Shown: positions 2,650 through 33,941 of the stretch, in pieces
How the letters are laid out: each line of letters begins with the position of its first letter
How positions within the stretch are numbered: the first letter of the stretch is position 1
Source of the DNA: Verrucomicrobiota bacterium
GTDB taxonomy: Bacteria > Pseudomonadota > Gammaproteobacteria > Nevskiales > Nevskiaceae
Direction: 5' to 3'
NCBI GenBank assembly: GCA_903970595.1
Contig: CAJCJI010000221.1
Coordinates: 1 to 44,692 of the forward strand
DNA length: 44,692 nucleotides
Notes under the pieces: generated by a model
What the model saw: only the letters and a program-made list of their open reading frames with translations
Database searches by the model: none
What the model was told of the DNA's origin: nothing
Position numbers and translations under genes: made by a program

Positions 2650-2685
2650 CGTCACTACGCTCCGTGTGGGAAATGCACTCTTCAT

Positions 2686-10284: not shown

Positions 10285-11304
10285 TCAATACGTCACCGTT
10301 ACCGTAACCGTATCGCTGTAGGTATTGGGCGCGGGTGTGGTCTGCGCCGGCACCAGGCCGAAGACGGTGTAGTTCTGGGTACTTCCGGCACCGGTGCCGC
10401 CGCCGGTGCTGGTGCCGGAGGTGCCGTCGCCCCACACCGCGCTATAGCCCGAATTGGTATAGAGCTGGTATTGCACCACGGCGCTGCCGCTGCCGGCCAT
10501 CAGCCGGTTGCCGAGGCTGGCGCCGCTGGTGGTGCCCTTGTTGAGGGCGATGGTGTAGCTGTCGCCGCTGGTGCACTTCGCGCTAACGGTGCCGGTGGCG
10601 CCGAGGGCGGCGGTGAGCACGCCGACGCTGCCGCCGAAATTGATCGAGGTGGCGGTGACGATGCAGTCGTTGATGACGGTGGCGCTGGCGGTCAACGGAA
10701 AGGTGCCGCCGCTGGTGGTGCCGCCGTTGGAAGTGCAGGGGGTCGGCGTGGCGGGTGTGCCCAACAAGGAATAGGTGTAGTTGTAGTTGAGGGTGGCGGT
10801 GAGGGTCTGCGAATAGCTGCCGGCGGCGACACTGGTGTTCTGGCTGGATTGCAGATAGCCGTAGATCGGTATGGTGGTGCTGGCCGATCCGCCGAGCAGC
10901 AGGCTGGCCGTGGTCAGGCTCACCGCATTTGGCGGGTTGGGAAGACCCGGCGTGCCGCCGTAGGCGCCCCAGACGGTGCTGTGGGCGCTGTCCGCATAGA
11001 GGTTGTAACTGACGGCGCTGTTCATGCTGCGCGGCGTGCTGCCGCTGGCTCCGGGCACGCCCACGCAGATCGAATAGTTGATGGTGCCCACCGACAGCAG
11101 ACCCATGGTGCAATTGATGCTGATGTTGGCGCTGGCGGAATAATTGTTTCCCGATACCACGTCGACGCTGCCGAAAGGCACCGTGGGCGCGCTGGCGGAG
11201 CAGCTTTGGGCCTGCGCCCTGCCCGGATGCTGCAACAGCATCAGCGCCAGGCACAGCAGCAGCGCCGCCCGCAGCGGACCGGATGGATGGATCGAACGGC
11301 TCAT
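10285..11304 (-). CDS. Two-domain spore-coat-U-type tip subunit of archaic pilus (CsuE-like)
   Basis: A 339-residue exported protein with a signal peptide of about 32 residues (ending GRAQA). It has two tandem SCPU (spore coat protein U) Ig-like domains, roughly residues 33-185 and 190-339. The second carries the subunit signature SxVWGDGTSGTSTGGGTGAG and ends in an alternating VTVTVTY strand. In Csu pili the last gene encodes a two-domain tip adhesin, which matches the gene order here. The ATG at 11304 overlaps the usher stop (ATGA), so translation is coupled. The upstream in-frame extension lies inside the usher gene and is not used. Confidence 0.9.
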   Translation of the reverse strand: MSRSIHPSGPLRAALLLCLALMLLQHPGRAQAQSCSASAPTVPFGSVDVVSGNNYSASANISINCTMGLLSVGTINYSICVGVPGASGSTPRSMNSAVSYNLYADSAHSTVWGAYGGTPGLPNPPNAVSLTTASLLLGGSASTTIPIYGYLQSSQNTSVAAGSYSQTLTATLNYNYTYSLLGTPATPTPCTSNGGTTSGGTFPLTASATVINDCIVTATSINFGGSVGVLTAALGATGTVSAKCTSGDSYTIALNKGTTSGASLGNRLMAGSGSAVVQYQLYTNSGYSAVWGDGTSGTSTGGGTGAGSTQNYTVFGLVPAQTTPAPNTYSDTVTVTVTY

Positions 11305-13793
11305 GGCTTGCGCTCTCCGTTGGAGTGTCCGCTGGCTTTGCATGTCACCGGGCCGATGGTGGGCAGGCTGTTGGCGTCGCGCAGCGGCTGATAGTCGAAT
11401 ACCGCGGCGCAGTCCACGCTCTGGCGCGGATCGGTATTCTGCGCCGCCAGATGGTTGCGCGCCTGCAGGTTTTCGATGAAGGCCTGGCCGTCGTAGCCCA
11501 CCACGAAGTCCTGGCCCGATTCGACGTGACGCAGCAGGGTACCGCTCGGCAGAGGTCGGCCCATTGCATCCACCAGGATCACGGTGGCCGCCGTATAGCG
11601 CTGCACCGCGAAGTGGGCGAGCACGCCGGCCTGACTGCGGGGCACCGCGTCGATGCGGTTGATCGGGATGTTGGCGTCGGCCGGCAGCACCAGGCTGTCG
11701 ATCTCCAGATGGTTATGCTGATAGGAGTTGAGATCGGGGATGAGCAGATGGCCGCTGCCGTCGGTATTGCCCATGACCCGGTTTTCGTTGAGCACCGGGA
11801 TGCCGGCGATGCCGTCGGTGGAGACCAGGGCGAAGCTGTCGTAGATACGGCGCGAGGGCTCGAACACGCCGTCCATGAACACCAGACCGCCGTTGCCTTC
11901 CAGCGACAGCAAGGTCTGGCCGGCGTTGTCCTGGGCGGCGACGCTGAGCTCGCCGTAGCGCCCCAGGTAGCCGGCGCGCGCCAGCCGGCTGTAGTCGGAG
12001 CCGCTTTCGTTGTCCTGCAGGCCCCATTCCAGGCCGCCGTCGTAGTCGGCGGTCTTCACCACGCTGGCGCCGAAGTCGTTCAGGTCCTGGCTGCGGCCGG
12101 CGCTGACGAAGCCAGTGACGCGGTGCCCCAGGTCGATCGATACGCCGAGCGAGAAGCCGTGCGCGTGGCTCGAGTCGAAGTCCATGTAGGCGTTGCCGAA
12201 GACGCTGCACCAGCGCCATAGCTGCGCGGTGTAGTAGAGGGAGCCGATGCGCGAGATGTCGTTGTCCGTAATGCCTGGCACGGAGTTTGCCGCCGGCGCC
12301 GGCACGGGGCTGCTCAGGCTATGGATATAGCTCAGGCCGATGCTCTGCGTGCGCAGAATCGGCAGGGACAGGTTCAGCTGGTCGAAGATGCGCGGCGGCG
12401 GCGTGCCGCCGATCGTGGCCAAATCCCGGTACCGGCTGAAGTTGCGCGTGGTCTGCGCCACGAAGCTGAAGTACGGCATGATCCACTGATAGCCCAGGCT
12501 GGCCTGGTAGCCGCTGCTTTCGCCGGTGCTGCCGGCGACGGCGGCATTGATCACACCCCCCTGTCCCAGCCGCAGCAGCCCGCCGGCCCCGGCATTGTAG
12601 AGCCCCGCGCTGCCCTCGCCGTGGCTCTCCACGGTGAGGAAATCGGACAGGCCGCGGCGCCAGGAGCCGCTGAGGCTGGGGGTCTGGCCGTAGTCGAAGG
12701 AGTTGACGCCGTAGTTGCGGCGCAGGAAGCCGCCTTCCAGCGAGTAGTTGCTCAGGCCGCTGGCCACCATGCGGTTGTCGACATAGATCGGCATGGTAGT
12801 GCTGACTTCGCGGCCGAGTTCGTCGCGCACCACCAGGCGTGCCTCGCCGCCGCCGGTCAGGGCCACCGGATTGTCGATGACGAAGGGGCCGCTCGGCACT
12901 TCGCTGCTGAACTGGCGGATATTGTTGATATACAGATCCACCGCGGAGGGTACCGCCGCGCTGCCCGACAGGGTCGGCATCGGAAAGGTGATCAGGTCCG
13001 GGCGCAGCGCGAAATTGCGGCGGAACTGGAAGCCGCCGAGGCGCACCGGCCGGGTCCAGCTGAGCGAGGACGAGATCGCGTCGCCGGCCTGCGCGGTGGT
13101 CAGCTTCTGCGGATCGTCGACATGCCAGATGCTGTCCAGCCGGGTATAGGGATCCAGGCCGCCGCCGGCGCGGGCCACGCCGGTATTGTCGAAGATGCCC
13201 CAGCGGCTGAACAGCCGCTCCTCGTTGGACAGGCTCAGGGTGGTGGCGACGCCGCGGTCCGGACTGCCTTGCAGGAAGGCGTCGTAGTTGAGCACCAGCC
13301 CGGTGTCCGCCGCGGCGGGCACCGCGCTGCTGCCGCGTCCGCCGATGTGAGTCGGCGCCACCAGTTGCTCGCCGGCAGTCAGGGCGATGGCCTGCCGGCT
13401 GGCATCGTAGCGGTATTGCAGGCCGGGAACCTGGTCCAGGGCGATCAGCCGGGTAGCGCCGGACTGCGCCCGGTCGACGCGGATGCTCTTCAGTCCCGCC
13501 AGATTGCGCAGATTGCGGGTTTCCAGCCCGAGCTGACTGAGGTCTTCCAGGTCGGTGTAGAGGCGCCCGTCCTTCTGGTAGAACGCGACCACCATCTGCG
13601 TGGGCTGGCCGTTGATAGTGACGTCGAGGTAAAGCGGCGTGGCGTCGAGCGAGTCCAGGGAGGTGGCGCGCTGCGTGGACCCTGTCGGTAAAGGCGGCTT
13701 GCCCAGGTCGAGCGTTGCGGACGGCGGCTCATCGCCAAACGCAGGCTGCAGAACGGCCGCGGCAAGTATCACGACCCATAAATACCGAGCCAT
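11301..13793 (-). CDS. Archaic chaperone-usher pathway outer-membrane usher (CsuD-like)
   Basis: An 830-residue usher of the FimD/PapC superfamily, archaic sigma type. It has a signal peptide of about 20 residues and then an N-terminal domain with YLDVTINGQPT and Q-K-D-GRLYTDLEDLSQLGL. A 24-strand barrel region follows, with the typical FQFRRNFALRPDLITFPMPTLSGSAAVPSAVDLYINN linker, the DELGRE plug-flanking motif, and C-terminal domains ending in YDGQAFIENL. It receives chaperone-subunit complexes and assembles and secretes the pilus. I start at ATG 13793; an in-frame GTG at 13841 would place the start inside a strong hairpin. Its 3' end overlaps the tip-subunit start by 4 bp. Confidence 0.93.
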   Translation of the reverse strand: MARYLWVVILAAAVLQPAFGDEPPSATLDLGKPPLPTGSTQRATSLDSLDATPLYLDVTINGQPTQMVVAFYQKDGRLYTDLEDLSQLGLETRNLRNLAGLKSIRVDRAQSGATRLIALDQVPGLQYRYDASRQAIALTAGEQLVAPTHIGGRGSSAVPAAADTGLVLNYDAFLQGSPDRGVATTLSLSNEERLFSRWGIFDNTGVARAGGGLDPYTRLDSIWHVDDPQKLTTAQAGDAISSSLSWTRPVRLGGFQFRRNFALRPDLITFPMPTLSGSAAVPSAVDLYINNIRQFSSEVPSGPFVIDNPVALTGGGEARLVVRDELGREVSTTMPIYVDNRMVASGLSNYSLEGGFLRRNYGVNSFDYGQTPSLSGSWRRGLSDFLTVESHGEGSAGLYNAGAGGLLRLGQGGVINAAVAGSTGESSGYQASLGYQWIMPYFSFVAQTTRNFSRYRDLATIGGTPPPRIFDQLNLSLPILRTQSIGLSYIHSLSSPVPAPAANSVPGITDNDISRIGSLYYTAQLWRWCSVFGNAYMDFDSSHAHGFSLGVSIDLGHRVTGFVSAGRSQDLNDFGASVVKTADYDGGLEWGLQDNESGSDYSRLARAGYLGRYGELSVAAQDNAGQTLLSLEGNGGLVFMDGVFEPSRRIYDSFALVSTDGIAGIPVLNENRVMGNTDGSGHLLIPDLNSYQHNHLEIDSLVLPADANIPINRIDAVPRSQAGVLAHFAVQRYTAATVILVDAMGRPLPSGTLLRHVESGQDFVVGYDGQAFIENLQARNHLAAQNTDPRQSVDCAAVFDYQPLRDANSLPTIGPVTCKASGHSNGERKP

Positions 13794-13811
13794 CAAATTT
13801 CGCAGAACATT

Positions 13812-13837
13812 CCACTCTCCCGCTTGCGGGAGAGTGG
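13812..13837. repeat. 12-bp perfect inverted repeat between chaperone and usher genes
   Basis: CCACTCTCCCGC (13812-13823), TT, GCGGGAGAGTGG (13826-13837). It lies in the 57-bp gap between the chaperone stop and the usher start and is immediately 5' of the usher. In RNA it forms a very stable hairpin with a small loop. No U tract follows on the minus strand, so it is not a classic terminator. The sequence resembles widely dispersed CTCTCCCGC...GCGGGAGAG intergenic elements of proteobacteria. Confidence 0.8.
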
Positions 13838-13850
13838 GCACGGCCTGCGC

Positions 13851-21407: not shown

Positions 21408-24377
21408 ATGAACGATCACAAGGATGTTTTCGGGGAGTTGTCCGCCTGGCGGGCGGTAGACACGGGGCTGGCGCAATTGAAGCTCTCCGGTGCGCCCGCC
21501 GCGCGGGCTCCCGCATTGTGCCTGGACTACAACTTCAACGGAGCCAAGGGCTTTGTGGTGGCGAGCCGGGCTCTGCATCGCGCAATGCCTGCCGAATATT
21601 CCGTGCGCTTTCGTTTGCGCGGCCGCGCGGCGGTGAATCATCTCGAGCTGAAATTCGTCGATCCCACCGGCCTCAACGTATGGCGCCATGTGATCAAGGA
21701 TTTGAAGGTGCCGGCCAGGTGGCACCGGATCTGTATCTCCAGCCGCGACATCGAATTTGCCTGGGGGCCGGCGAGCGGCGGTCTTATCAAAGATCTTGGC
21801 GCGCTTGAAATTGCCATTGTCGCCGGCGAAGGCGGCGTTGGAACGCTGTGGCTGGCCGACCTGAAAATCGAGGAACAAGCTCCGCTGCAGGCTCCGCACC
21901 TCCGCGCGTCCAGCGCGCTGCTCGGCTTCGAGGCCGCCAAGGCACTTGCCGGCGGCAGCTGGAAGCCGCTTGCGGATGACCCGCGGCCGTGGATCGAGAT
22001 CGATTGCCTGCAGGTCCGCAGCATCGGCGGGCTGATCGTCGACTGGAGCGGCGGCGCCCCGGCCAGCGGCTTTCGCGTTCGCGGTTCGCAAGGCGGACGG
22101 CGCTGGCAGACCTTGTACAAGGCGGCACGGGCCGGCGGCAAGCGCAGCTATGTCTATCTGCCGGGGCTCCAGACCCGCTATGTCCGGCTCGAGATGACGC
22201 AGCCTGCGGCGGGCGCGGCGCTGCAATTGCAATCGTTCGAATTCTCGCGCTCGATCGATGCGTTCTGGAACAACATCGCCAATGCCGAGGCGCGCGGCTG
22301 GCACCCGCGCTGGCTGCATCGCGAGCAGAGCTTCTGGACGCCGCTGGGTACCGCGGCCGGCGCACCCACCGCGCTGATGAACGAAGAAGGCATGGTGGAA
22401 GTGTCGCCCGGCTCTTATTCGATCGAACCGATGTTGTGGATCGGCGGCCGGCTTTTCACTTGGGCCGATGTCACGCCCCGGCAGGAATTGCCCGAAGGCT
22501 GGATGCCGGTGCCCGTCGTGATCTGGGAAACCGCCGACTGGCGCCTGCGCATACAGGGCGAGGCGACGGTCAACGGCGCCGTGCGCCTGATCTATCGGCT
22601 GGAGAATCTCGCCGGCCAGGCTGTCGCGGCGCGCCTGTTTCTGCTGGTGCGTCCATTCCAGGTGACGCCGCCCTGGCAGAGTTTCCGCAAGGTGGGCGGG
22701 GTCAGCCGCATCCAGGCCCTGGAATGGCGCAACGGCGCGGTCTGCGTGAATGCGGAAAGCCTGATTGTTCCGCAGAAGCAAGCAGGCGGATTCGGGGCAA
22801 CGAGCTTCGACGAGGGCTGCATCGCGGCCAGCCTCGGCGCGGGAACGCTGCCATCCAATACACAAGTGCAGGATGCATTCGGCTTTGCCTGCGGGGCGCT
22901 GGCCTTCGACCTGGCGCCGCAGGCGCAGCAGACGGTGGAAAGCGTGGTGGTGTGCAAATCGTCAAATGCCAAAGGCTCGGACGGCGATCCGGCCTTCGAC
23001 TGGAGTGCCGCGCTTGCGCGGCAGGCATTCAGCGGCGCCTCCTGGACCATGGACGCGGTCAACACCCAGCGCACGGCCACGGCACATGTGCTGCTGACAC
23101 GCTCCGGTCCCGCGCTGCAGCCCGGTCCGAGGCGCTACGCGCGTTCCTGGATACGCGATGGCGCCATCATGAGCGCCGCGCTGCTGCGCACCGGGCATAC
23201 GCAGGAGGTGCGCGATTTCATCCGCTGGTATGTGCCGCACCAGCGCGCGGATGGCTTCGTGCCCTGCTGCGTGGACAGCACCAGCCCTGACTGGCTGGTC
23301 GAGCACGACAGCCACGGACAGTTGATCGCGTTGATCGCGGATTACCATGCCTTCACTTCCGATCTGGAATTCCTCGAGGAGTGCTGGCCGCACGTGGATA
23401 AGGCGGTGGCCTGTATCGGCGGCCTGATCGAGAGCGGCGGCTTGATGCCGGTATCGGTGAGCCATGAGGGCTACCTGGCGCAGCCGGTACATTCCTACTG
23501 GGACGATTTCTGGACGCTGCGCGGTTTGCGCGACGCCGTGAATCTCGCGCGCACGCTGGGCCGGCACGAACAGCTAGGGCAGTGGGAAACCTTGGCCGCG
23601 AATTTTGCCGCGGGCTTGTTTGCCTCGATCAAGAACACCTGCACGCAGCGCAAGCTCGACTTCATACCGGGCAGTGTCGAGTGGGCGGACTTCGATCCCA
23701 CCTCCACCGCCAATGCGCTCGCCCTGCTGGATGTGCCCGAGGGCCTGGACCGCAGCCTGCTCGAACAGACCTTCTCCACCCACCTGAGCCGCTGGCGCGA
23801 GCGGCGCAGCGGCGCGGTGCCCGCGCCGAACTATACGCCTTACGAGATCCGCATCATCGGCGCCCTGGTGCGCCTGGGCTGGCGCGAGCCCGCGCTGGAA
23901 TTGCTGCGCTTCTTCCTTTCGGACCGCCGTCCGCTGGCCTGGAACCAGTGGCCGGAAATCGTGTGGCGTGACCCCAGGGCGCCGGCCCATCTGGGCGATC
24001 TGCCGCATACCTGGGTCGCCGCCGAATACATCCTCGCGGTGCGCAGCTTGTTTGCCTATGAGCGCGAAACGGATCGCAGCCTGGTACTGGCGGCGGGGCT
24101 CGCCCCGGAGTGGATCCAAGGGGCCGGCGTGCGGGTGGACAGCATGCCGACGCTGTATGGCGCCCTGAGTTACAGCCTGAGCAGGATCGACGCGCGGACC
24201 TTGCGCTTCGACATCGCGGCGGGCGTCTCGGCGCAACTGGTCCTGCGTCCTCCGCTGCAGGCCCCGCTGCGCAGTGTGACGGTCAACGGCAGCGAGTGGC
24301 AAGGCTACGAGCGGGATGCCGTAAGCATTCCGCCGGGAGCGGCGGTCGTGATCTGCACGGCGTTCGAAGGGAGCTGA
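21408..24377 (+). CDS. Large discoidin-domain, six-hairpin glycosidase-like protein
   Basis: A 989-residue cytoplasmic protein (no signal peptide). In order: a beta-sandwich carbohydrate-binding-like region (about 30-155), a discoidin/F5/8-type C domain (about 185-283, WIEIDCLQVRSIGGLIVDWSG...RYVRLEM), a second beta region (about 290-530), and an (alpha/alpha)6-toroid region (about 545-890). The toroid contains RSWIRDGAIMSAALLRTG (W581, R583, D584), like the W-x-RD substrate-site motif of glucoamylase/debranching-type enzymes, and DWLVEHDSHGQLIALIADY. It is probably an intracellular glycoside hydrolase or phosphorylase acting on an oligosaccharide; I cannot name the family. The 3' end is 15 bp from the convergent GH3 gene, suggesting a shared substrate. 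The start at 21408 has no strong Shine-Dalgarno. Confidence 0.8.
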   Translation: MNDHKDVFGELSAWRAVDTGLAQLKLSGAPAARAPALCLDYNFNGAKGFVVASRALHRAMPAEYSVRFRLRGRAAVNHLELKFVDPTGLNVWRHVIKDLKVPARWHRICISSRDIEFAWGPASGGLIKDLGALEIAIVAGEGGVGTLWLADLKIEEQAPLQAPHLRASSALLGFEAAKALAGGSWKPLADDPRPWIEIDCLQVRSIGGLIVDWSGGAPASGFRVRGSQGGRRWQTLYKAARAGGKRSYVYLPGLQTRYVRLEMTQPAAGAALQLQSFEFSRSIDAFWNNIANAEARGWHPRWLHREQSFWTPLGTAAGAPTALMNEEGMVEVSPGSYSIEPMLWIGGRLFTWADVTPRQELPEGWMPVPVVIWETADWRLRIQGEATVNGAVRLIYRLENLAGQAVAARLFLLVRPFQVTPPWQSFRKVGGVSRIQALEWRNGAVCVNAESLIVPQKQAGGFGATSFDEGCIAASLGAGTLPSNTQVQDAFGFACGALAFDLAPQAQQTVESVVVCKSSNAKGSDGDPAFDWSAALARQAFSGASWTMDAVNTQRTATAHVLLTRSGPALQPGPRRYARSWIRDGAIMSAALLRTGHTQEVRDFIRWYVPHQRADGFVPCCVDSTSPDWLVEHDSHGQLIALIADYHAFTSDLEFLEECWPHVDKAVACIGGLIESGGLMPVSVSHEGYLAQPVHSYWDDFWTLRGLRDAVNLARTLGRHEQLGQWETLAANFAAGLFASIKNTCTQRKLDFIPGSVEWADFDPTSTANALALLDVPEGLDRSLLEQTFSTHLSRWRERRSGAVPAPNYTPYEIRIIGALVRLGWREPALELLRFFLSDRRPLAWNQWPEIVWRDPRAPAHLGDLPHTWVAAEYILAVRSLFAYERETDRSLVLAAGLAPEWIQGAGVRVDSMPTLYGALSYSLSRIDARTLRFDIAAGVSAQLVLRPPLQAPLRSVTVNGSEWQGYERDAVSIPPGAAVVICTAFEGS

Positions 24378-24392
24378 ATCATCCGGCCGCGT

Positions 24393-26540
24393 TTATTTGC
24401 ACAGACGGATCGTGCCGGCCAGCAATTGTGAGCGGTCGGCGCAAGGTCCCACCAGGATCTCGACTTCGCCCTCTTCGAATACCGGCAGCAGATCGGGGCC
24501 GAGGAAACGCAAGTCGGCCGCCGCAAGCGACAGGCTCACCGTGCCGGTTTCGCCGGGGCGCAAGGCGATCTTTGCGAACCCCCTCAGTTCCAGCAGCGGC
24601 CGCGCCACGCTCGCCAGCTTGTCGCGGGTGAAGAGGAATACGGTTTCCTCGGCGGCGCGCGCGCCGGCATTGGTGACGTCGACTTGCACCTCGACACTCT
24701 CCTTTTCGCTCAACTTGTCCGGCGTGAGGTGCAAGTCCTGCAGCGTGAAGCGTCCATAGCTCAGTCCGTGGCCGAAGGGATAGAGCGGCTCGTTGGAGAC
24801 GTCGAGATACTTGCTGGTGAAGTGATCGTCCGGATTTGCCGGTCTGCCGCTGGGACGCTGCGCGTAGAAGATGGGCATCTGGCCCAGCGCCCGGGGCCAG
24901 GTGATGGCGGTGCGCCCGCTCGGAGAAACGCGGCAGGTCAGCACATCGGCGATGGCATTGCCGGCCTCGCTGCCGAGGAACCAGGCCGCCAGTACGGCGT
25001 CGGCCTTGCCGGCCAGCCAGGGCACGATCAAGGGCCGGCCGGAGAACAGGATGACGATGACGCGGCAGCCGAGCTTTGCGGCGCGCTTGAACACCGCCTC
25101 GGCCAGCGCGCGCTGTTGTCCCGGCAATTCCGGGCTGGCACGACTCGCGGCCTCGCCGCTCATGGTGGCCCGTTCGCCCAGGCACAGGATGATGGCATCG
25201 GCGCCCTCGCACAGTTCGACGGCCTTGGCGATGCCGGCCTTGCGCGGCTCGTCGATGGCCACGCCGGAGGCCTGCAGGATTTCGGTACCTGGCAGTGCAG
25301 CGCGCAGGCCGGCCAGGACGCTCACCTGGCCTTCCGGTTCTCCCGCGGCCCACCAGGGGCCGCGCATCTCGGCGGGAGCGTCGGCGAGCGGGCCGATGAG
25401 GCATAGCCGTCGCGGGGCTGGCGGCAAGGGCAGGGTTTCCTGCTCGTTCTTAAGCAGTACGATGGCGCGCGCGGCGACGCTGCGCGCCAGCTTGCGGCGT
25501 TGTGCCAGCTGCTCGCTGCTTTCCGGTGTAGCGCCTCGGCGGTAAGGGTCGTCAAACAGTCCTAGTTGTTCCTTGAGCCGCAGCACCCGGCGCACCGAGG
25601 TGTCGATCTGTTCCATAGTGACGAGGCCGCGCTCCAGGGCGAGCGGCAGCCCGCGCCGATAGGCGTCGGCCATCATGTCGATGTCGACGCCGGCCTTGAG
25701 CGCCAGCGCCGCGGCTTCCGCCAGGTCGGCGGCAATACCGTGGCGGATCAGTTCGCCGATGGCGTTGTAGTCGCTGACCAGGACGCCGCCGAAGCCGAGC
25801 TGGCCGCGCAAGGTGTCGCGCAGCAGGGCAGCATTGGCCGTCATCGGGATGCCGGCCAGGTCGGTGAACGCAGGCATGATCGCCGCGACGCCGGCCTGCA
25901 CCGCCGCCGCGAAGGCCGGCAGGTGGATTTCGCGCAGCGTGCGCTCCGAGATGTCCACCGAGGCATATTCGCGCCCCGCCGTGACCGGGCCGTAGGCGCA
26001 GAAATGCTTGGCGCAGGCGGCCAGCGACTCCGCATCAGCCAATGCGGCCCCTTGCAGGCCCGAGACCTTCGCCCGGGCGATGCGCACCGCCAGCCAGGGG
26101 TCTTCGCCCGGGCCTTCCGCGGTGCGGCCCCAACGCGGGTCGCGGGATACGTCCAGCATCGGCGCGAAGGCCATCGCCAGTCCATCGGCGCAGGCTTCCC
26201 GCGCCGCCTCGCGCGCGGTCAGCGCCCAGCTAGCCGGATCGAACAAGCCTGCCTCGGCCAGCGGGATCGGAAACAGGGTGCGGTGGCCGTGGATCACGTC
26301 GAAGCCGATCAGCAGCGGGATTCCCAGGCGCGATTCCTCCACCGCCAGACGCTGCATTTGCCGCACCGGCTCCGGGCCGACCAGGTTCAGCAGATTGCCG
26401 ATGGTGCCGGCCTTGATGGCGTCGGTGGAGTCGCCGGCGATGAACGGGCCGGTTACGGCGTAGCCGGCAGCCGTCATGGTGAGCTGGCCGAGCTTTTCCG
26501 CCAGCGTCATCCGATCCAGCAGGCTTTCGATCCGGTTCAT
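24393..26540 (-). CDS. Glycoside hydrolase family 3 beta-glucosidase (BglX-like)
   Basis: A 715-residue GH3 enzyme hydrolysing beta-linked glucosides by retention. The N-terminal TIM-barrel domain has IPLLIGFDVIHGHRTLFPIPL, FAPMLDVSRDPRWGRTAEGPGEDPWL, ACAKHFCAYG and the nucleophile motif VSDYNAI (D257). The C-terminal alpha/beta sandwich has AIVLLKNEQETLPL and is followed by a fibronectin-III-like domain ending near the C-terminus. E. coli BglX is periplasmic, but this protein has no signal peptide from the chosen start at 26540 (AGGA just upstream), so it is probably cytoplasmic. The 39-residue upstream extension of the open frame has no signal peptide character and overlaps the divergent promoter region. 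Confidence 0.95.
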   Translation of the reverse strand: MNRIESLLDRMTLAEKLGQLTMTAAGYAVTGPFIAGDSTDAIKAGTIGNLLNLVGPEPVRQMQRLAVEESRLGIPLLIGFDVIHGHRTLFPIPLAEAGLFDPASWALTAREAAREACADGLAMAFAPMLDVSRDPRWGRTAEGPGEDPWLAVRIARAKVSGLQGAALADAESLAACAKHFCAYGPVTAGREYASVDISERTLREIHLPAFAAAVQAGVAAIMPAFTDLAGIPMTANAALLRDTLRGQLGFGGVLVSDYNAIGELIRHGIAADLAEAAALALKAGVDIDMMADAYRRGLPLALERGLVTMEQIDTSVRRVLRLKEQLGLFDDPYRRGATPESSEQLAQRRKLARSVAARAIVLLKNEQETLPLPPAPRRLCLIGPLADAPAEMRGPWWAAGEPEGQVSVLAGLRAALPGTEILQASGVAIDEPRKAGIAKAVELCEGADAIILCLGERATMSGEAASRASPELPGQQRALAEAVFKRAAKLGCRVIVILFSGRPLIVPWLAGKADAVLAAWFLGSEAGNAIADVLTCRVSPSGRTAITWPRALGQMPIFYAQRPSGRPANPDDHFTSKYLDVSNEPLYPFGHGLSYGRFTLQDLHLTPDKLSEKESVEVQVDVTNAGARAAEETVFLFTRDKLASVARPLLELRGFAKIALRPGETGTVSLSLAAADLRFLGPDLLPVFEEGEVEILVGPCADRSQLLAGTIRLCK

Positions 26541-26634
26541 CCAGTCCTGTTCACGTTTGTTTGCCCAGGGCCATCTCCAGCAAAGCCACGTATGATAGGT
26601 CGGCTGCGGGAAAACGCCAGCAAAGCCATCGCGG

Positions 26635-28455
26635 ATGACGGATCGAGCAAACAACAACGGCGGCGTCGAAGCGGAACCTGTGACAGCGGGCCAGGCCGGA
26701 CTCTGGGGTCAGCTCGGCCCGATCCTGCGCGCCCTGCGGGTCTCGGCCGCTGGCAATGCGATCCTGCGGCTGGTGATCGAACTGATCGTGGTGATCGTCG
26801 CCACCGCCTACGGACAGATCCAGCTCAATAGCTGGAACAAGCCGTTCTACGACGCCCTGTCGCGCCGCGACGTCAAGGGCTTCCTGGTTCAGCTCGGCGT
26901 GTTCTTCGTGATCACCGGGTTGCTGCTGGTGCTCGTCGTAGCGCAGAAATGGGTGGTGGAGAGCCTCAAGGTCAGCCTGCGCGAGGGCCTGGTGCGGGAT
27001 CTCGTCGGCCACTGGATGAGCCCGCGCCGGGCCTTCTGGCTGGCCCATGCCGGGCCGATGGGGGTCAACCCGGACCAGCGCATGCACGAAGACGCGCGCA
27101 AGCTGTGCGAGCTGTCCTGCGACCTGGGTTCGGGCCTGCTCCAGGCCACGGTCCTGTTCGTGACCTTTGCCGGCATCCTGTGGACGATGTCCAGCGGCTT
27201 CAGCCTGCATGTCGGCGGCGGCGACTATCCCATCCCCGGTTTCATGCTGTGGGTGGCCATTCTCTACGCCGGCGCCGGTTCGCTGCTCAGCTGGTGGGTC
27301 GGGCGCAGCCTGATCGACCGCAACGCCGAGCGCTACGCGCGGGAAGCGGATCTGCGCTTTTCGCTGGTGCACATCAACGAACACCTGGACGGCATTTCGC
27401 TGGCCGGCGGCGAAGCCGACGAAAACCGGCGTGTGGAGGTGTACCTGGCCGAGGTGCTCGCCGCCACGCGCCGCATCGTCACCGGCCTGACCAATCTGAC
27501 CTGGATCACCTCGGGCTTCGGCTGGATCACCCTGGTCGCACCGATCCTGGTGGCGGTGCCCCTGTACTTCGCCGGCAAGATCTCCTTCGGCGGATTGATG
27601 ATGGCCGCTTCCGCCTTCACCCAGGCGCAGTCCTCCCTGCGCTGGTTCGTCGACAACTTCAGCGTCATTGCCGACTGGCGCGCCACCCTGCTGCGCGTCG
27701 CCAGCTTCCGCCAGGCCCTGACCGCGGACCAGTTGCCGCAGGACCATACCAGCCGCATCCGCTATGAAGAGGGCGAGCCGGGAACCCTGCGCATCGAAAA
27801 CCTCGAGCTCAGTTCCCCTTCCGGCCGTGAAATGCTCAAGGAGCGCGATGTGGTGGTGAAGGCGGGCGAGCGCGTGCTGGTGCTGGCTGCGCCCGGAACC
27901 GGCAAGACGCTGCTGTTCCGCGCCCTGGCGGGCTTGTGGCCCTGGGGCGCCGGGCGCATCGCCAGCCCGAAGGGAGAGCCGATCTTTTATATGCCGCGTG
28001 GCACGCCCTACCTGCCGCGCGGCACCCTGCGCGAAGTCCTGGCCTATCCGGCACAGGCCGGGAACTTCGGCGAAGACGCCTACGTTCATGCCCTGGGGCG
28101 CCTCGGCCTCGAGCGCCTGGTGCCGGCGCTCGACCTGATCCAGCGCTGGGACCGCGAGTTGAGCCAGGAAGAGCAGCTCAGCCTGGCCTTTGCCCGCATC
28201 GTGCTGCAAGCGCCGCCCTGGGTGCTGATGGATGATGCCTTCGGCTCGCTCGACGACGCCGCGCTCGAACGCGTGGTCGATGTGTTCGCAAGCGAACTCA
28301 AGGCCACCAGCGTCATCCACATCGGCCGCGCCGCGCAGGGGCTCGACACCATGTTTCCGCGTGTCCTGCACCTGGTCAAGACTCCGGGCCAGGCGGCCTC
28401 GGCCGAGCCGTCCAGTACGGCACCGCCGCGCAAGGCGACGGCGAACAGCCCATGA
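26635..28455 (+). CDS. YddA/SbmA-type ABC membrane protein with degenerate ATPase domain
   Basis: A 606-residue fused permease-ATPase of the ABC_membrane_2 (SbmA/BacA/YddA) family. The membrane domain (about 35-340) has IQLNSWNKPFYDALSRRD, the family hallmark, and NPDQRMHEDARKL. The C-terminal domain resembles an ABC ATPase but deviates at every key site: Walker A is A418-A-P-G-T-G-K-T (first Gly is Ala); the signature is L509-S-Q-E-E-Q (LSxGE Gly is Glu512); after Walker B Asp533 the catalytic Glu is Asp534; the H-loop VISVGHR position reads V560-I-H-I-G-R565. SbmA itself has no ATPase domain and runs on proton motive force, so this may be a family member with a decaying ATPase. Its stop overlaps the next start (ATGA), so the two genes are coupled. 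Confidence 0.88.
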   Translation: MTDRANNNGGVEAEPVTAGQAGLWGQLGPILRALRVSAAGNAILRLVIELIVVIVATAYGQIQLNSWNKPFYDALSRRDVKGFLVQLGVFFVITGLLLVLVVAQKWVVESLKVSLREGLVRDLVGHWMSPRRAFWLAHAGPMGVNPDQRMHEDARKLCELSCDLGSGLLQATVLFVTFAGILWTMSSGFSLHVGGGDYPIPGFMLWVAILYAGAGSLLSWWVGRSLIDRNAERYAREADLRFSLVHINEHLDGISLAGGEADENRRVEVYLAEVLAATRRIVTGLTNLTWITSGFGWITLVAPILVAVPLYFAGKISFGGLMMAASAFTQAQSSLRWFVDNFSVIADWRATLLRVASFRQALTADQLPQDHTSRIRYEEGEPGTLRIENLELSSPSGREMLKERDVVVKAGERVLVLAAPGTGKTLLFRALAGLWPWGAGRIASPKGEPIFYMPRGTPYLPRGTLREVLAYPAQAGNFGEDAYVHALGRLGLERLVPALDLIQRWDRELSQEEQLSLAFARIVLQAPPWVLMDDAFGSLDDAALERVVDVFASELKATSVIHIGRAAQGLDTMFPRVLHLVKTPGQAASAEPSSTAPPRKATANSP

Positions 28456-30725
28456 TCAGCCGGTTCTCCTTGGCCGGGTGCCTGCTGCTGTGCTCGATGC
28501 TGGCGCCGGCCTGCTGGGCCGACGAGGGGGAGTTCGAATTCCAGGCGCCGGCGACGGCGGCCGATGCCGGCCTCGGCGCGGCCGTGCGCGACCTGGCCGA
28601 ACGCGTGCTGCCAGTGTATGAAGAGCAGGACCCCGAGCGCTACCTGGCCAACCTGTCCGCCCTGCAGATGGTCGCCGGGGATTATGCCTCGGCCGACGAG
28701 ACGCGCCAGTCGCTGCGCGAGCGGCGCAAAGCCTCCGACCCCGGCCGGCTGGCGGAGCGTGCCCTGCTGTTCGACCTGTATGCGCATGCCAAGGCGCTGG
28801 AAGCAGGCGGCACGATGCCCTTCGGCCAGGCGTTTACCCTATCGTTCCGTGAGGAGGTGCCCAAGCTCAACGACCGGGACGCCTACACCGTCACCGGCTG
28901 GCTCGGCACGCCGCTGTCCAGCCTGCAGGCCGCCTTGCAGAAATCCCTCGACCAGCTGCGCGCAAAGTCCGGCATCAGCCAGCCGGAAGCGCTCGACCTG
29001 ATCTGGAACTACCTCACCTTCGATGCCTTTCGCAGCCTGGCGCCCCTGGTCGAAACGCTGGGCAGCGCCGACGAGAGCAGGCGCTATCGCACCGAGGACA
29101 AGATGCTGCTCAAGATCCGCGGCGCGGCGCCGATCCATATCCGCCTGGTGTTTCCGAGGAGCATTGCCAATACCTCCGCCAGGCTGCCGGCGCTGCTTGA
29201 ATTCTCGATTTTCGGGACCAACGACGACGCCATGGCCAGCGCGGCCCACGGCTACGTCGGAGTAGTGGCCTATCGGTTCGGGACGGAGCAGCGCCGCAGC
29301 GGCCTGGTTCCGTTCGAGCATGACGGCGAGGATGCCAGGGCGGTGATCGAATGGATTGCCAGGCAGAAGTGGAGCGATGGCCGGGTCGGCATGTATGGCG
29401 GCGGCTACAGCGCCTTCGCCGCCTGGGCCGCCGCAAAACGCCCGCCGGCCGCGCTCAAGGCCATTGCCACGGCCGATGCCATGGCGCCGGGCATCGATTT
29501 CCCCCTCGCTGGCAACATCTTCCGCAACAGCGCCTTGCGCTGGGCGGCGGACAACATCCAGGGGCTGGCCGATTCCGGCGAACGGGAGGATGCGCAGTGG
29601 CGCGCGCTCGATCTTGCCTGGTACCGCAAGGGTTCGCCTTACCGGGCGCTCGACCGTCGGCTCAGGAAACCGCGGGTCAGCCTCATTTTTCAAGGCTGGC
29701 TCAGCCATCCCAGCTATGATCGTTACTGGCAGAAGATGATTCCCCATGCGGAGCAATTCGCCAAAATCGATATTCCGGTGCTGGCGACCACCGGCTACTA
29801 CGCCAGGGGCCAGGCCGGCAGCCTGTACTATTTCAGCCAGCACCAGCACTACCGGCCCGGCGCCGAAGATGCGTTGCTGATCGGTCCCTATGATGATGCC
29901 AGGGTGCAGGGCGGGCGCTCGGCGCTGCTGCGGGATTACCCTCTGGATACGGCAGCCCTGGTCGATCTGCGCGAGCTGCGCTACCAGTGGTTCGACCATG
30001 TGCTCAAGGGCGCCGTCCGGCCGGCGCTGCTGCAGGATCGCGTCAACTTCGAAGTCATGGGCGCGAACCAGTGGCGGCATGTCCCGTCGCTTGCAGCCAT
30101 GGCCGATGGAACGCTGCGCCTGTATCTGGACGCCGGCTCGGCCGATGGCAGGCACCGGCTGGTACCGGTTCTCCCCAAGGCCGAAACAGTCCTGGCGCAG
30201 ACCGTCAACCTCGCAGATCGCGGCGGCGCCCAGGCCAGCCTTGCGCCGCCATCCATCCTCACCAAGGACCTGGCCCCCGGACAAAGCATCTGCTACGTGA
30301 GCGAACCGCTGAAACAGGCGACCGAAGTGGATGGCCAGCTCGCCGGCCAGCTCGATTTCACGATGAACAAGATGGATCTGGACCTGAATCTGAGCCTGTA
30401 CGAACTTCTGCCGGACGGCGAATACCTGCAGCTGTCCGACCCCTACGAATTCCGCGCCAGCTACGCGGGCGACCGCGCGCATCGCCATCTGCTGAAGGCG
30501 GGCGTGCGCCAGCAGCTGCCGATCACCAGCGAGCGCATCGTCAGCCGCAGGCTCGAGGCCGGCAGCCGCCTGGTGCTGGTGCTGGGAGTCAACCTGCGGC
30601 CGGACCGGCAGATCGATTATGGAACCGGCGGCGACGTCAGCGCCGAGTCCATCGCCGACGCGCATGTCCCCCTGAAGATCCAGTGGTACAGCAGCAGCTA
30701 TGTCGAGGTGCCGGTGCGCAGGTAA
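28452..30725 (+). CDS. Exported CocE/NonD-family protein lacking the catalytic triad
   Basis: A 757-residue protein with a signal peptide to about residue 23 (APACWA). The N-terminal helical region (about 25-215) is followed by a CocE/X-Pro-dipeptidyl-peptidase-type alpha/beta-hydrolase domain (about 225-540) and a C-terminal jelly-roll domain (about 550-750). The nucleophile elbow, normally GGSY, is G316-G-G318-Y, so Ser is replaced by Gly. The GYYD acid position is A451 (GYYARGQ). The GPYDH His position is D482 (GPYDDAR). The family residues are from memory of CocE/NonD sequences. The fold otherwise looks intact, with no frameshift. It is coupled by a 4-bp overlap to the ABC-type membrane protein gene. 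Likely a periplasmic pseudoenzyme or binding protein. Confidence 0.87.
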   Translation: MISRFSLAGCLLLCSMLAPACWADEGEFEFQAPATAADAGLGAAVRDLAERVLPVYEEQDPERYLANLSALQMVAGDYASADETRQSLRERRKASDPGRLAERALLFDLYAHAKALEAGGTMPFGQAFTLSFREEVPKLNDRDAYTVTGWLGTPLSSLQAALQKSLDQLRAKSGISQPEALDLIWNYLTFDAFRSLAPLVETLGSADESRRYRTEDKMLLKIRGAAPIHIRLVFPRSIANTSARLPALLEFSIFGTNDDAMASAAHGYVGVVAYRFGTEQRRSGLVPFEHDGEDARAVIEWIARQKWSDGRVGMYGGGYSAFAAWAAAKRPPAALKAIATADAMAPGIDFPLAGNIFRNSALRWAADNIQGLADSGEREDAQWRALDLAWYRKGSPYRALDRRLRKPRVSLIFQGWLSHPSYDRYWQKMIPHAEQFAKIDIPVLATTGYYARGQAGSLYYFSQHQHYRPGAEDALLIGPYDDARVQGGRSALLRDYPLDTAALVDLRELRYQWFDHVLKGAVRPALLQDRVNFEVMGANQWRHVPSLAAMADGTLRLYLDAGSADGRHRLVPVLPKAETVLAQTVNLADRGGAQASLAPPSILTKDLAPGQSICYVSEPLKQATEVDGQLAGQLDFTMNKMDLDLNLSLYELLPDGEYLQLSDPYEFRASYAGDRAHRHLLKAGVRQQLPITSERIVSRRLEAGSRLVLVLGVNLRPDRQIDYGTGGDVSAESIADAHVPLKIQWYSSSYVEVPVRR

Positions 30726-30744: not shown

Positions 30745-32109
30745 TTAACCTACTGTTTCCGCTTCCGGCATTTCCAGGCTGAAGGTTTCGGCGGCGTCGT
30801 CGTAGGTGAACAGCTCGGCGTAGCGGCCCCACATGGTGACCGCCCGCAGGGTCTGTTCGGCGGCGCTGTCGCTCAGGTAATCCTCCAGCTCCGACAGGAA
30901 GCGCACGGCCGGCGCGCGATGGCCGGGGCGCTCGTCCAACACGCTCTTGATGTGCGCGGCCAGCGGAATCCGGGTCAGCATCTGCTTGGCGAAGCCCACC
31001 TTGCGGCTTTGCGTATCGGCCAGGGCAAACTGCTGACCCAGCGGGGTCAAGTGCACGTCGCCGTTGGCGATCTCGGCGTAGCCGAGCATCTGCAGCGACT
31101 CGGCCAGCGGAAAGAATTCGTCCACCTCCAGCGCCAGGGTCTGCGCCAGGGCCGGCATGTCGGCATGGCCATGGTAGATATCCGAGGCCAGGGTTTCGAT
31201 CAGACCGGCGAGCAGGTTGGTCGAAACCTCGTGCAGTCGCTCGCCGATCGACAGCACTGTGGCCTTGCCGGCGTCGGCGCGCACCGTCATGCGCGAGTAG
31301 ATGTCGTCCACCAGCTGGCGGAAGCGGGGGTCCAGGCGGTTGCGCGGGTGCTTGAACGGCACCTTGATCTCGGCCACCACCCGGCCCGGGTTGGCCGAAA
31401 ACACCAGGATACGATCACACATGAACACCGCCTCCTCGATGTTGTGCGTCACCAGCAGCACGGCCTTGATCGGCAGCTTGTTTTCTATCCACAAGTCGAG
31501 GAAGTCGGTGCGCAGGGTTTCGGCGGTCAGCACGTCCAAGGCGGAGAACGGCTCGTCCATCAGCAGGATGGTGGGATTGACCACCAGGGCGCGGGCAAAG
31601 CCGACGCGCTGGCGCATGCCGCCGGACAGCTCGCGCGGGTAGGCGTTGGCAAATCCGTCCAAGCCGATCAGGTCGATGGCCCGCAGCGCCAGTTCGCGCA
31701 TCTCATCGGGGGGCACCCCCTGCGCTTCCAGGCCGGCCTCTACGTTCTGCAGCACCGTCAGCCAGGGAAACAGGGCGAAGGACTGGAACACCATGGAAAT
31801 CCCTTCCGCCGCCCCATGCAGCGGCTGTCCCCGGTAGATCACCTCGCCGTCGGAAGCCTTGATCAGGCCGGCGACGATGCGCAGCAGCGTCGACTTGCCG
31901 GAGCCCGAGCGGCCCAGCAGGCCGATGATCTCGCCCTTGTGCAGGTCCAGGTTGACCGATTCCAGCACCACCAGCGGCTCGCCGTGGGGGCGCCTGAAGG
32001 AGCGGCGCACGCCGCGCACTTGCAGCACGGTTTCGCCGGGTTGGCCGGCCGCCGCCGAAGTGGCTGCCGGCGCAGACGCGGGTGCCGGATTCCTGGATTC
32101 CTCGTTCAT
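30745..32109 (-). CDS. ABC importer ATPase, nitrate/sulfonate/taurine type, with C-terminal AAA-associated domain
   Basis: A 454-residue protein. A complete ATPase domain (about 28-260) carries Walker A GRSGSGKST, Q-loop VFQSFALFPW, signature LSGGMRQR, Walker B ILLMDEPFSALD and H-loop VTHN. The FPWLTVLQNVEAGL motif marks the nitrate/taurine importer subfamily. The C-terminal extension (about 290-440) is the AAA-associated domain (PF09821 type). It has no signal peptide and acts on the inner face of the membrane with the fused permease, 11 bp upstream on the same strand. It is convergent with the CocE-like gene (19 bp gap). Confidence 0.93.
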   Translation of the reverse strand: MNEESRNPAPASAPAATSAAAGQPGETVLQVRGVRRSFRRPHGEPLVVLESVNLDLHKGEIIGLLGRSGSGKSTLLRIVAGLIKASDGEVIYRGQPLHGAAEGISMVFQSFALFPWLTVLQNVEAGLEAQGVPPDEMRELALRAIDLIGLDGFANAYPRELSGGMRQRVGFARALVVNPTILLMDEPFSALDVLTAETLRTDFLDLWIENKLPIKAVLLVTHNIEEAVFMCDRILVFSANPGRVVAEIKVPFKHPRNRLDPRFRQLVDDIYSRMTVRADAGKATVLSIGERLHEVSTNLLAGLIETLASDIYHGHADMPALAQTLALEVDEFFPLAESLQMLGYAEIANGDVHLTPLGQQFALADTQSRKVGFAKQMLTRIPLAAHIKSVLDERPGHRAPAVRFLSELEDYLSDSAAEQTLRAVTMWGRYAELFTYDDAAETFSLEMPEAETVG

Positions 32110-32120
32110 CCGTTGTCTCC

Positions 32121-33941
32121 TTATTCATCGATGCCGGCAAGACGTTCGGCGCTGCTGTACAGCGGCCGCCACAGCACCCGGTTGAATCCGACCACGAACA
32201 GCGACATCACCGCCACCCCCAGCACCAGGCGCGGGTAATCCGCATCGGTGGAGGCCTGTTCGATATACGCGCCCAGGCCGAAGGCCTGCACATGGGTATG
32301 GCCCCAGGTGACCCACTCCGCCACGATGCTGGCGTTCCAGCAGCCGCCCGCGGCCGTCATGGCGCCGGTGACGTAGTAGGGCAGGATGCCGGGGATCATG
32401 GCGCGCTTCCACCACAGCCAGCCGCGCAAGTGCAGGTTGCCGGCAGCGTCGCGCAGATCGTGCGGAAATACGCTGGCGCCGGCGACCACGTTAAACAGGA
32501 TGTACCACTGCGTGCCGAAGATCATCAGGGGGCTGAGCCAGATGTCCGGGTGCAGGTGGAAACTGACGATCAGCGCCACCGCCACCGGGAACAACAGGTT
32601 GGCGGGAAAGGCCGCGAGGAACTGTGCTGCCGGTTGGGCCATGGCCGCCAGCCGGGGGCGCAGGCCGATGGCGACGCCGATCGGCACCCAGATCAGGCTG
32701 GCCAGGGCCACCAGCAGGATGACGCGGGTCATCGTCGCCAGGCCCAGCAGCACCGCGTGCCCGACCTCGCCGAAGCCGATGCTATGGCTGATGTAGCGCC
32801 CGGTGGTCCAGACGCCGTAGGCGGCGGTCAGGACGATGGCGCCATACCAGGCGATGTCCAGCGCCAGCGGCGTCCACGCCGGGAGTTGCAAGCTTGACTG
32901 GGAAACGGCCACGGCGGCGCGCCGCGGGCGCAGGATGCGGTTGAGGGCGTTATCGAACGGGCGCCACATCAGCGCGGCAAAGCGCGAGCGCTGCAGCATG
33001 CGCAGAATCCATGATTCCGGCTGTACCTGGCCCGGTTCGTTGTCGGCGCGGAATTTTTCGCCCCAGGCGATCAGCGGACGGAACAGCAGCTGGTCGTAGA
33101 GCAGGATCACGATCAGCATCGCCAGGATGGCCCAGCCGATGGCGCCACGATTCATTTGCAGGATGGCGGTGGCGACGTAGGAGCCGACTCCGGGCAAAGT
33201 GATGGTCTGGTCGCCTACAGTAATTGCTTCGGAGGCCACCACGAAGAACCAGCCGCCGGACATCGACATCATCATGTTCCAGATCAGGCCGGGCATGGCG
33301 AACGGCAGTTCCAGCCGGCGGAAGCGCTGCAAGGGGCCGAAGCGCAGGCTGGTACAGGCTTCCGACAGGTCCGGCGGCAAGGTGCGCAGGGACTGGTAGA
33401 TGGAAAACGTCATGTTCCAGGCCTGGCTGGTGAAGATCACGAACACCGAAGCCAGCTCGGCGCCGAGTACCCGGCCCGGGAACAGGCCGAGAAAAAACGT
33501 GTAGGTGAAGGTCAGGAAGCCCAGGATCGGCACCGACTGCAAGATGTCCAGCAGCGGGATCAATACGCGTTCCGCGCGCTTGCTCTTCGCCGCCAGGCTG
33601 GCATAGCCGATGCTGAAGACCAGCGACACCACCATGGCCGCGGCCATGCGCAGGGTGGTGCGCAGGGCGTAGTAGGGCAGGGCGGACGGATGCAGGTCCA
33701 CCGGCGTCTTTTCCAGGGCCGACAGCGGCGCGCCGAACTGCGAGGTGCCGAAGGACACCAGCAGCAGCGTGCCGAACAGCAGGGCGAACGCCACCAGGTC
33801 CCAGAAGCTCGGCAGGCCGCCGCGGGCGATGCCGCGCACCGCCAAGTAAGGATGCGCCACGATGCGGCGCACGGCGGCCGGCGCTTCCGCCAGCTCGCGC
33901 AGCAGGATTTTCGGATCGCCAGAGCCCGTCCTGAATTCCAC
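32121..33941 (-). CDS. Fused double permease of a nitrate/taurine-type ABC importer
   Basis: A 606-residue membrane protein containing two tandem binding-protein-dependent permease domains (about 85-300 and 385-590). The EAA-type cytoplasmic loops are EACTSLRFGPLQRFRRLELPFAMPGLIWNM and DAAGNLHLRGWLWWKRAMIPGILPYYVTG. Most relatives of the taurine/nitrate type use two identical permease chains; here the two halves differ and are fused. The start is GTG at 33941 with GAGG 6 nt upstream. It is the first gene of a two-gene operon with the ATPase; no periplasmic binding-protein gene is adjacent. The substrate is unknown. Confidence 0.92.
   Translation of the reverse strand: MEFRTGSGDPKILLRELAEAPAAVRRIVAHPYLAVRGIARGGLPSFWDLVAFALLFGTLLLVSFGTSQFGAPLSALEKTPVDLHPSALPYYALRTTLRMAAAMVVSLVFSIGYASLAAKSKRAERVLIPLLDILQSVPILGFLTFTYTFFLGLFPGRVLGAELASVFVIFTSQAWNMTFSIYQSLRTLPPDLSEACTSLRFGPLQRFRRLELPFAMPGLIWNMMMSMSGGWFFVVASEAITVGDQTITLPGVGSYVATAILQMNRGAIGWAILAMLIVILLYDQLLFRPLIAWGEKFRADNEPGQVQPESWILRMLQRSRFAALMWRPFDNALNRILRPRRAAVAVSQSSLQLPAWTPLALDIAWYGAIVLTAAYGVWTTGRYISHSIGFGEVGHAVLLGLATMTRVILLVALASLIWVPIGVAIGLRPRLAAMAQPAAQFLAAFPANLLFPVAVALIVSFHLHPDIWLSPLMIFGTQWYILFNVVAGASVFPHDLRDAAGNLHLRGWLWWKRAMIPGILPYYVTGAMTAAGGCWNASIVAEWVTWGHTHVQAFGLGAYIEQASTDADYPRLVLGVAVMSLFVVGFNRVLWRPLYSSAERLAGIDE

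Follow-up and report, generated by a model that had tools for sequence, protein, structure and literature searches.

What is the role of a hydrolase-like protein in which the entire catalytic triad has been replaced? This question is raised by a gene at 28452..30725 (+) in a 44,692-nucleotide stretch of DNA from a member of the Nevskiaceae (contig CAJCJI010000221.1 of assembly GCA_903970595.1, here called the window). The initial annotation, made from the sequence letters, had described its product as an exported protein of the CocE/NonD type and as a selected pseudoenzyme. We found that the loss of the triad is shared by a clade of related proteins. Two further elements, which the initial annotation had not covered, came into view: a partner transporter, itself eroded in its nucleotide-binding domain (NBD), and genes for glycan breakdown.

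The gene is a single, unbroken reading frame, as had been stated, and encodes 757 amino acids (aa) with a signal-like start; the CocE/NonD fold was assigned by profiles, alignment and a structure model. By profile the protein is a member of the CocE/NonD family, scoring 142.8 bits against NCBIfam TIGR00976 CocE_NonD (cut-off 66.3), 102.4 bits against Pfam Peptidase_S15 (PF02129, cut-off 23) and 31.2 bits against Pfam PepX_C (PF08530, cut-off 22.5). The altered motifs read at the triad sites by the initial annotation (G316-G-G318-Y, GYYARGQ and GPYDDAR) are borne out by a phmmer alignment to cocaine esterase (CocE), which pairs GMYGGGY with GMFGVSY, GYYARGQ with GWYDGFV and GPYDDAR with GPWSHSN. 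In this alignment the nucleophile Ser column is occupied by G318, the third Gly of GGG (codon GGC, 29403..29405, +), the acid Asp column by A451 (codon GCC, 29802..29804, +) and the catalytic His column by D482 (codon GAT, 29895..29897, +). F254 (29211..29213, +), assigned by eye from an ungapped motif, lies in a column where Tyr is kept in 9/9 intact relatives; we take this column to be that of the oxyanion residue Tyr44 of CocE. The genome of the window also encodes a CocE paralogue (L002), in which the motifs GGSY, GWYD and GPWWH are kept. The window protein is almost certainly not a Ser-Asp-His hydrolase.

Relatives were collected from 58 sampled genomes of the Nevskiaceae and from a scan of species genomes. 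Matches to the pseudoenzyme at E<=1e-40 were obtained in 18 of the 58 family genomes, 17 with a degenerate copy and one (G027) with an intact copy. The species-genome scan gave 19 loci. Three of these (L025, a Nevskia sp. metagenome-assembled genome (MAG); L026, Panacagrimonas perspica; and L027) repeat G008, G021 and G032, one (L031) is a partial degenerate copy from a Nevskiaceae MAG, and eight (L036-L043) were excluded as weak relatives. The comparison set 18 degenerate rows, including two partial ones, against nine intact rows, namely G027, G448 and seven loci from Bacteroidota or Ignavibacteriae (L028-L030, L032-L035). The intact homologues are 30-43% identical to the window protein. A wide spread across the class was not seen: in a sample of 369 genomes, relatives at E<=1e-50 were present in two, the window's own genome and that of the intact G448. 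The searches of this class sample with pseudoenzyme and transporter both recovered the window's own genome.

As far as each row covers the columns, no degenerate row has kept Ser, Asp or His of the triad. The Ser column contains Gly in 12, Thr in four and Asp in one of 17 rows (one of the 18 lacks coverage), the four rows with Thr being congeners. Among all 18 rows, the Asp column contains Ala in 11, Gly in five and Ser in two, and adjoins an alignment gap in four close congeners; the His column contains Asp in 11, Asn in two, Glu in two, Gly in one and Gln in one, and is deleted in one. The oxyanion Tyr is retained in 1/17 clade rows (G003). The intact rows have Ser, His and Tyr in 9/9 and Asp in 8/9, the ninth having Asn. 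The clade envisaged by the initial annotation, sharing Gly, Ala and Asp at the three columns, thus exists with respect to the loss, and these are the commonest letters, but they are not fixed. A chance loss or an assembly error is ruled out, because, as far as coverage goes, the residues of these columns have also disappeared from 17 further rows (16 from genomes, one from a MAG contig), and the paralogue L002 is intact. With 17 genomes concordant and an intact triad in the same genome, the initial judgment that no sequencing error is involved holds. Nor was a triad seen to have moved elsewhere in the protein: no Ser, Thr, Cys or His column was clade-specific (>=90% of clade rows, <=30% of intact rows), thresholds at which a weaker gain could be missed. 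Other columns do set the clade apart, with E250 in 17/17 clade rows against 0/9 intact rows and A324 in 17/17 clade rows against Gln in 9/9 intact rows. The idea of a cleft widened by small residues was dropped, since Gly354 and Ala337 are also present in the intact G027 and composition may explain others; A324 alone stands.

In a maximum-likelihood tree of 26 rows, the 17 degenerate rows lie on one side of a branch with support of 100/100, found in 100% of 200 bootstrap trees; this is the kind of clade that the initial annotation had suggested looking for. The nearest row outside is the intact G027; the tree was rooted for display only. Most simply, the triad would have been lost once within the Nevskiaceae. 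Selection was estimated as the ratio of nonsynonymous to synonymous substitution rates (dN/dS, NG86) for the six pairs of four congeners. The pseudoenzyme gave 0.125-0.199, overlapping the range of a neighbouring gene of glycoside hydrolase (GH) family 15 (0.128-0.173); values were 0.060-0.156 for the neighbouring GH144 gene, 0.032-0.085 for the transmembrane domain (TMD) of the transporter and 0.087-0.203 for its NBD. The pseudoenzyme values therefore argue for long purifying selection and rule out random decay among the congeners; together with the clade-wide loss they support the proposal of a selected pseudoenzyme. Five more distant pairs (NG86 0.33-0.48, dS 0.72-0.92) were not used for this claim.

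An AlphaFold2 model of the pseudoenzyme, built from 27 rows, had a predicted local distance difference test score (pLDDT) of 89.7 and a predicted template-modelling score (pTM) of 0.87; a model of the intact G027 copy had a pLDDT of 85.7. Foldseek against the PDB returned cocaine esterases as best matches (E 5.3e-36, template-modelling (TM) score 0.76-0.80 by target length). The model thus predicts a CocE fold and agrees with the earlier statement that the rest of the fold is intact. This fold is common to CocE (PDB 1ju3 and others), TIGR00976 proteins and S15 X-Pro dipeptidyl peptidases, among which are the best PDB matches by both sequence and fold; the CocE entries are ~20-22% identical to the window protein in structural alignments. 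Unlike CocE, the window protein has Ser, Asp and His all replaced and Phe in the Tyr44 column, and adds a helical domain of ~170 residues in front. This all-helical N-terminal domain (residues 41-211 in the model, 28572..29084, +) precedes the catalytic core. Its mean identity is 46% within the clade and 26% to the intact G027, and the region is also found in five intact rows (L028, L029, L032, L035, L058). D47, R63 and R91 of this domain are invariant in 16/16 clade rows and differ in the five intact rows covering them. Residues ~1-24 (28452..28523, +) form a likely signal peptide, with a hydropathy of 2.36 for the best 10 of the first 35 residues and a cleavage site placed by eye.

Upstream of the pseudoenzyme, a gene at 26635..28455 (+) encodes, by Pfam profiles, a YddA/SbmA-like ATP-binding cassette (ABC) transporter of 606 aa with TMD and NBD in one chain (ABC_membrane_2 2.2e-29, 103.1 bits against a cut-off of 24.4; SbmA_BacA 5.3e-18; ABC_tran 7.9e-6). 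Its end overlaps the start of the pseudoenzyme gene by 4 bases (ATGA), and overlaps of 1-4 bases were present in 14/16 genomes measured. In G047 an upstream GTG start, which also has a hydrophobic stretch, would give the same overlap by arithmetic and reading by eye. The transporter gene lies directly 5' of the pseudoenzyme gene in all 17 genomes; L031 begins within the pseudoenzyme gene, hence its upstream side lies outside the record. At E<=1e-60 the transporter occurs in 17/58 family genomes; these coincide exactly with the genomes that have a degenerate copy, and G027 is not among them. Relatives outside the family (class sample, E<=1e-70) are 28-37% identical.

Residues on which ATP hydrolysis normally depends are missing from the NBD of this transporter. 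In the NBD alignment R455 (27997..27999, +) replaces the Q-loop Gln, E512 (28168..28170, +) the signature Gly, turning LSxGEQ into LSQEEQ, D534 (28234..28236, +) the catalytic Glu of Walker B and R565 (28327..28329, +) the H-loop His. Compared with 20 NBDs (19 class relatives and E. coli YddA), the Q-loop Gln is present in 0/17 clade rows versus 20/20, the signature Gly in 0/17 (Asp or Glu instead) versus 20/20 and the H-loop His in 0/17 versus 19/20. The clade transporters have the one-chain, ABC_membrane_2-type architecture in common with YddA and YddA-like proteins and differ from them by these three losses (17/17). Identity within the clade is 69% for the TMD and 55% for the NBD, against 45% for both in class relatives, which argues for an NBD released from constraint relative to the TMD. 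On a TMD tree the transporter clade has support of 100/100. A YddA-like transporter from a different family (L085 / L093:4857-6935, genome G314), also with eroded NBD motifs, joins this clade on the TMD tree, where long branches meet. No CocE partner was found beside it or beside the relative from the same genus, G199; the adjacent genes compared with Pfam encode a Glu/Leu dehydrogenase, which is the next gene at L085, and a weak TPR match.

The match to SbmA_BacA links the transporter to SbmA and BacA (SLiPT), which are proton-driven peptide importers. These proteins have no NBD, whereas the eroded NBD is still attached in 17/17 clade transporters. Passages of PMC13316013 describe the function of the YddA family as unknown, propose that SbmA derived from a YddA-like protein by loss of the NBD, with loss of ATP drive in the YddA-derived TMD leading to a proton-driven SbmA, and give its glutamate ladder as E193, E203, E269, E276, E287 and E378. 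Of these ladder columns, E193, E276 and E378 contain an acid in 17/17 clade rows.

The surroundings of the gene pair point to glycans. GH144 is the endo-β-1,2-glucanase family and GH15 the glucoamylase family. Genes of both lie 5' of the transporter-pseudoenzyme pair in 15/17 genomes; GH15 and close GH144 genes each occur in 15/58 family genomes, all among the 17. A divergent GH3 gene is found in the loci of 15/17, 13 of them with GH144, and not in G026 or the short G043 contigs. In the window this gene (24393..26540, -) encodes 715 aa from a conserved start, has no signal-like start and retains the SDY motif; the gap of 94 bases to the transporter gene (26541..26634) presumably contains both promoters. 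The loci of the window and G003 retain GH3, transporter and pseudoenzyme without GH144 and GH15. The assembly of the window is 87% complete, yet GH3 and transporter are directly adjacent at the locus. The GH144 acids equivalent to CpSGL D135, D139, E142 and E211 are present in 15/15 relatives, as are the WEE and EQ motifs of GH15 and the SDY motif of GH3, motifs which we assume to be catalytic. A search for GH15 in the class sample gave 0/369 genomes with no positive control and is uninformative. The genome of the window contains a distant GH144 relative (37%; G000:C377:1878-3149), and a similar one is found in G050. A gene at 21408-24377 (+) encodes a 989-aa protein that has an F5/8 type C domain and matches GDE_C weakly. 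It has no PDB relative at E<=0.01 and none in the relatives' loci compared; possibly it is a glycosidase standing in for GH144 and GH15.

Clusters around β-1,2-glucanase (sgl) genes offer a comparison: parts of PMC11842490 describe a GH144-type gene near an ABC transporter, as in the operon of the relatives, with a binding subunit that takes sophorooligosaccharides. Where those clusters have a carbohydrate-binding subunit, the exported protein of the present operon is a former hydrolase. Production of α-1,6-cyclised β-1,2-glucan by Xanthomonas is described in parts of PMC11228985 and PMC11842490. Genes of the OpgG/OpgD type (PF04349), for osmoregulated periplasmic glucans (OPG), occur in 54/58 family genomes and, being near-universal, were rejected as a discriminating partner.

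For eight of the nine intact homologues the gene context was examined, and none of the gene clusters of the operon adjoins them there. A gene for a LytTR-domain regulator adjoins three intact copies (G027, L058:5703-6578; L030:7228-7920; L033:1108-1836), a hint at regulation of the ancestral enzyme. Related 92-aa HigB-like toxin genes (Pfam PF05015) lie at L058:14000-14278, several kilobases away from CocE in G027, and at L060:6204-6482, directly after the CocE gene in G047. Elsewhere in the window, 30745-33941 (-) encodes an ABC ATPase carrying an AAA_assoc_C domain, together with a permease of 606 aa in which two stretches match BPD_transp_1, and 1102-4884 (-) and 11301-13841 (-) contain adjacent genes for DUF1329 and DUF1302 proteins as well as one for an outer membrane usher.

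We propose that the pseudoenzyme descends from an exported CocE/NonD-fold serine hydrolase which, having lost its catalytic residues, was kept as partner of the adjacent YddA/SbmA-like transporter. In the periplasm, the pseudoenzyme would most likely use its former active-site cleft to bind a glucan or glucooligosaccharide and would then pass this ligand to the transporter, or gate the latter, in the manner of a substrate-binding protein. Such a receptor would be exported, encoded with its transporter and able to bind the substrate; here hydropathy suggests export, the two genes are co-encoded, and binding is a putative trait. The fold differs, since substrate-binding proteins of ABC importers have the periplasmic binding protein fold and the window protein that of CocE. 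The transporter would import the sugar, and GH144, GH15 and GH3, all lacking signal-like starts, could degrade it in the cytoplasm; for the copies in the window and G003, GH3 alone would act beside the pair. N-terminal hydropathy over 15 rows each was 1.8-3.3 for the pseudoenzyme, <=1.47 for GH144, <=1.94 for GH15 and <=1.24 for GH3. A proton gradient might drive transport as in SbmA, a suggestion made because of the residues lost from the NBD. An α-1,6-cyclised β-1,2-glucan might need the set of GH144, GH15 and GH3, and such glucans could come from the cell itself or from neighbours, given the OPG-type genes in 54/58 genomes. In our estimate there is about an even chance that the pseudoenzyme acts in the periplasm, without catalysis, as the receptor or a partner of an importer that takes up glycans of the β-1,2-glucan type. 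The fuller picture of two retired enzymes making up one importer, with a dead α/β-hydrolase as glycan receptor and a YddA-derived, proton-driven transporter with a dead ATPase, is rather unlikely to hold in every part.

Several observations weigh against this proposal. The Walker A Lys is kept in 14/17 clade transporters (19/20 comparators), the Walker B Asp in 17/17 (19/20) and the Walker B Glu in 5/17 (20/20), and a clade-specific His three residues before the place of the H-loop (16/17) could compensate; hence ATP binding, and perhaps slow hydrolysis, may persist. In the SbmA ladder no acid is present at E203 in the 17 rows and Asn or Ser stands at E269; D163 (16/17) lies one column from E203, and the region of E287 is poorly aligned. 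Orthologues of GH144 and GH15 are missing from the genomes of the window and G003, which makes the glucan link circumstantial for the window copy. Signal peptides were judged by hydropathy alone, the GH15 of G008 (1.94) exceeds the lowest pseudoenzyme row (1.82), and the pseudoenzymes of G047 and G043 have no signal at the starts used. New chemistry is conceivable with an acid two or three residues past the Asp column in some rows and with the acidic or Asn residue at the His column in 15/18. Finally, over 14 genomes the correlation between pairwise distances of pseudoenzyme and transporter persists once GH144 is regressed out (partial r 0.85 for the TMD, 0.76 for the NBD; 0/2000 shuffles as high), but it is equally strong with the presumed cytoplasmic GH15 (partial r 0.84). 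The correlation therefore singles out no contact with the transporter and was not used as proof.

The strict co-occurrence and the overlapping genes would also suit a structural or regulatory subunit that stabilizes or gates the transporter and binds no sugar. Variability of the old active-site columns, set beside the invariant D47, R63 and R91 of the helical domain, fits such a role. The lid region (341-441) is, however, no less conserved than in intact relatives (within-group identity averaging 0.51 versus 0.48), which suggests use of the cleft; this point is weak, because other core regions behave alike. We regard a pure subunit as rather unlikely. Catalysis by some other, non-serine mechanism that employs D482 at the old His column or other residues is distinctly improbable: Asp, Glu or Asn at the His column in 15/18 rows, the clade-wide E250 and the Thr at the Ser column of the four congeners speak for it, while the Gly, Gln or deletion at the His column of three rows and the lack of a clade-specific Ser, Thr, Cys or His column speak against it.

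Transport could also run outward. The OpgG/OpgD-type genes throughout the family, and the Brucella Cgt ABC transporter, which exports cyclic beta-glucan according to a part of PMC11842490, would fit an exporter or sensor for the cell's own OPG. Such genes are near-universal, though, and the locus is confined to 17/58 genomes; the operon hydrolases look cytoplasmic, fitting import, and SbmA and BacA are importers (as stated in a portion of PMC13316013). We consider export or sensing very unlikely. That the locus is a relic of decaying, functionless genes or an artefact is barely credible. Evolution is indeed fast, with distances across 14 genomes averaging 0.85 for the pseudoenzyme, 0.71 for the NBD and no more than 0.34 for GH144, and 3/17 transporters lack the Walker A Lys. 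Yet the low dN/dS already contradicts decay, and the occurrence in 17 genomes, the coding overlaps (kept in 14/16) and the confident CocE-fold model point the same way.

The family, the fold and the transporter type were known; a clade of CocE-fold pseudoenzymes tied to a YddA-like transporter with an eroded NBD appears to be new. Among the matches listed from the open-licence PMC literature, preprints excluded, none dealt with such a clade, with any CocE-fold pseudoenzyme or with a dead hydrolase as transporter partner. If the proposed importer is real, these bacteria would have made the change from ABC to secondary transporter proposed for SbmA and BacA by a second route, one that leaves the NBD in place. 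The clade is a natural test case for this change, as the NBD is present but eroded and the genomic setting suggests the substrate class. If confirmed, the profile labels CocE/NonD hydrolase and ABC ATPase would both mislead for these proteins.

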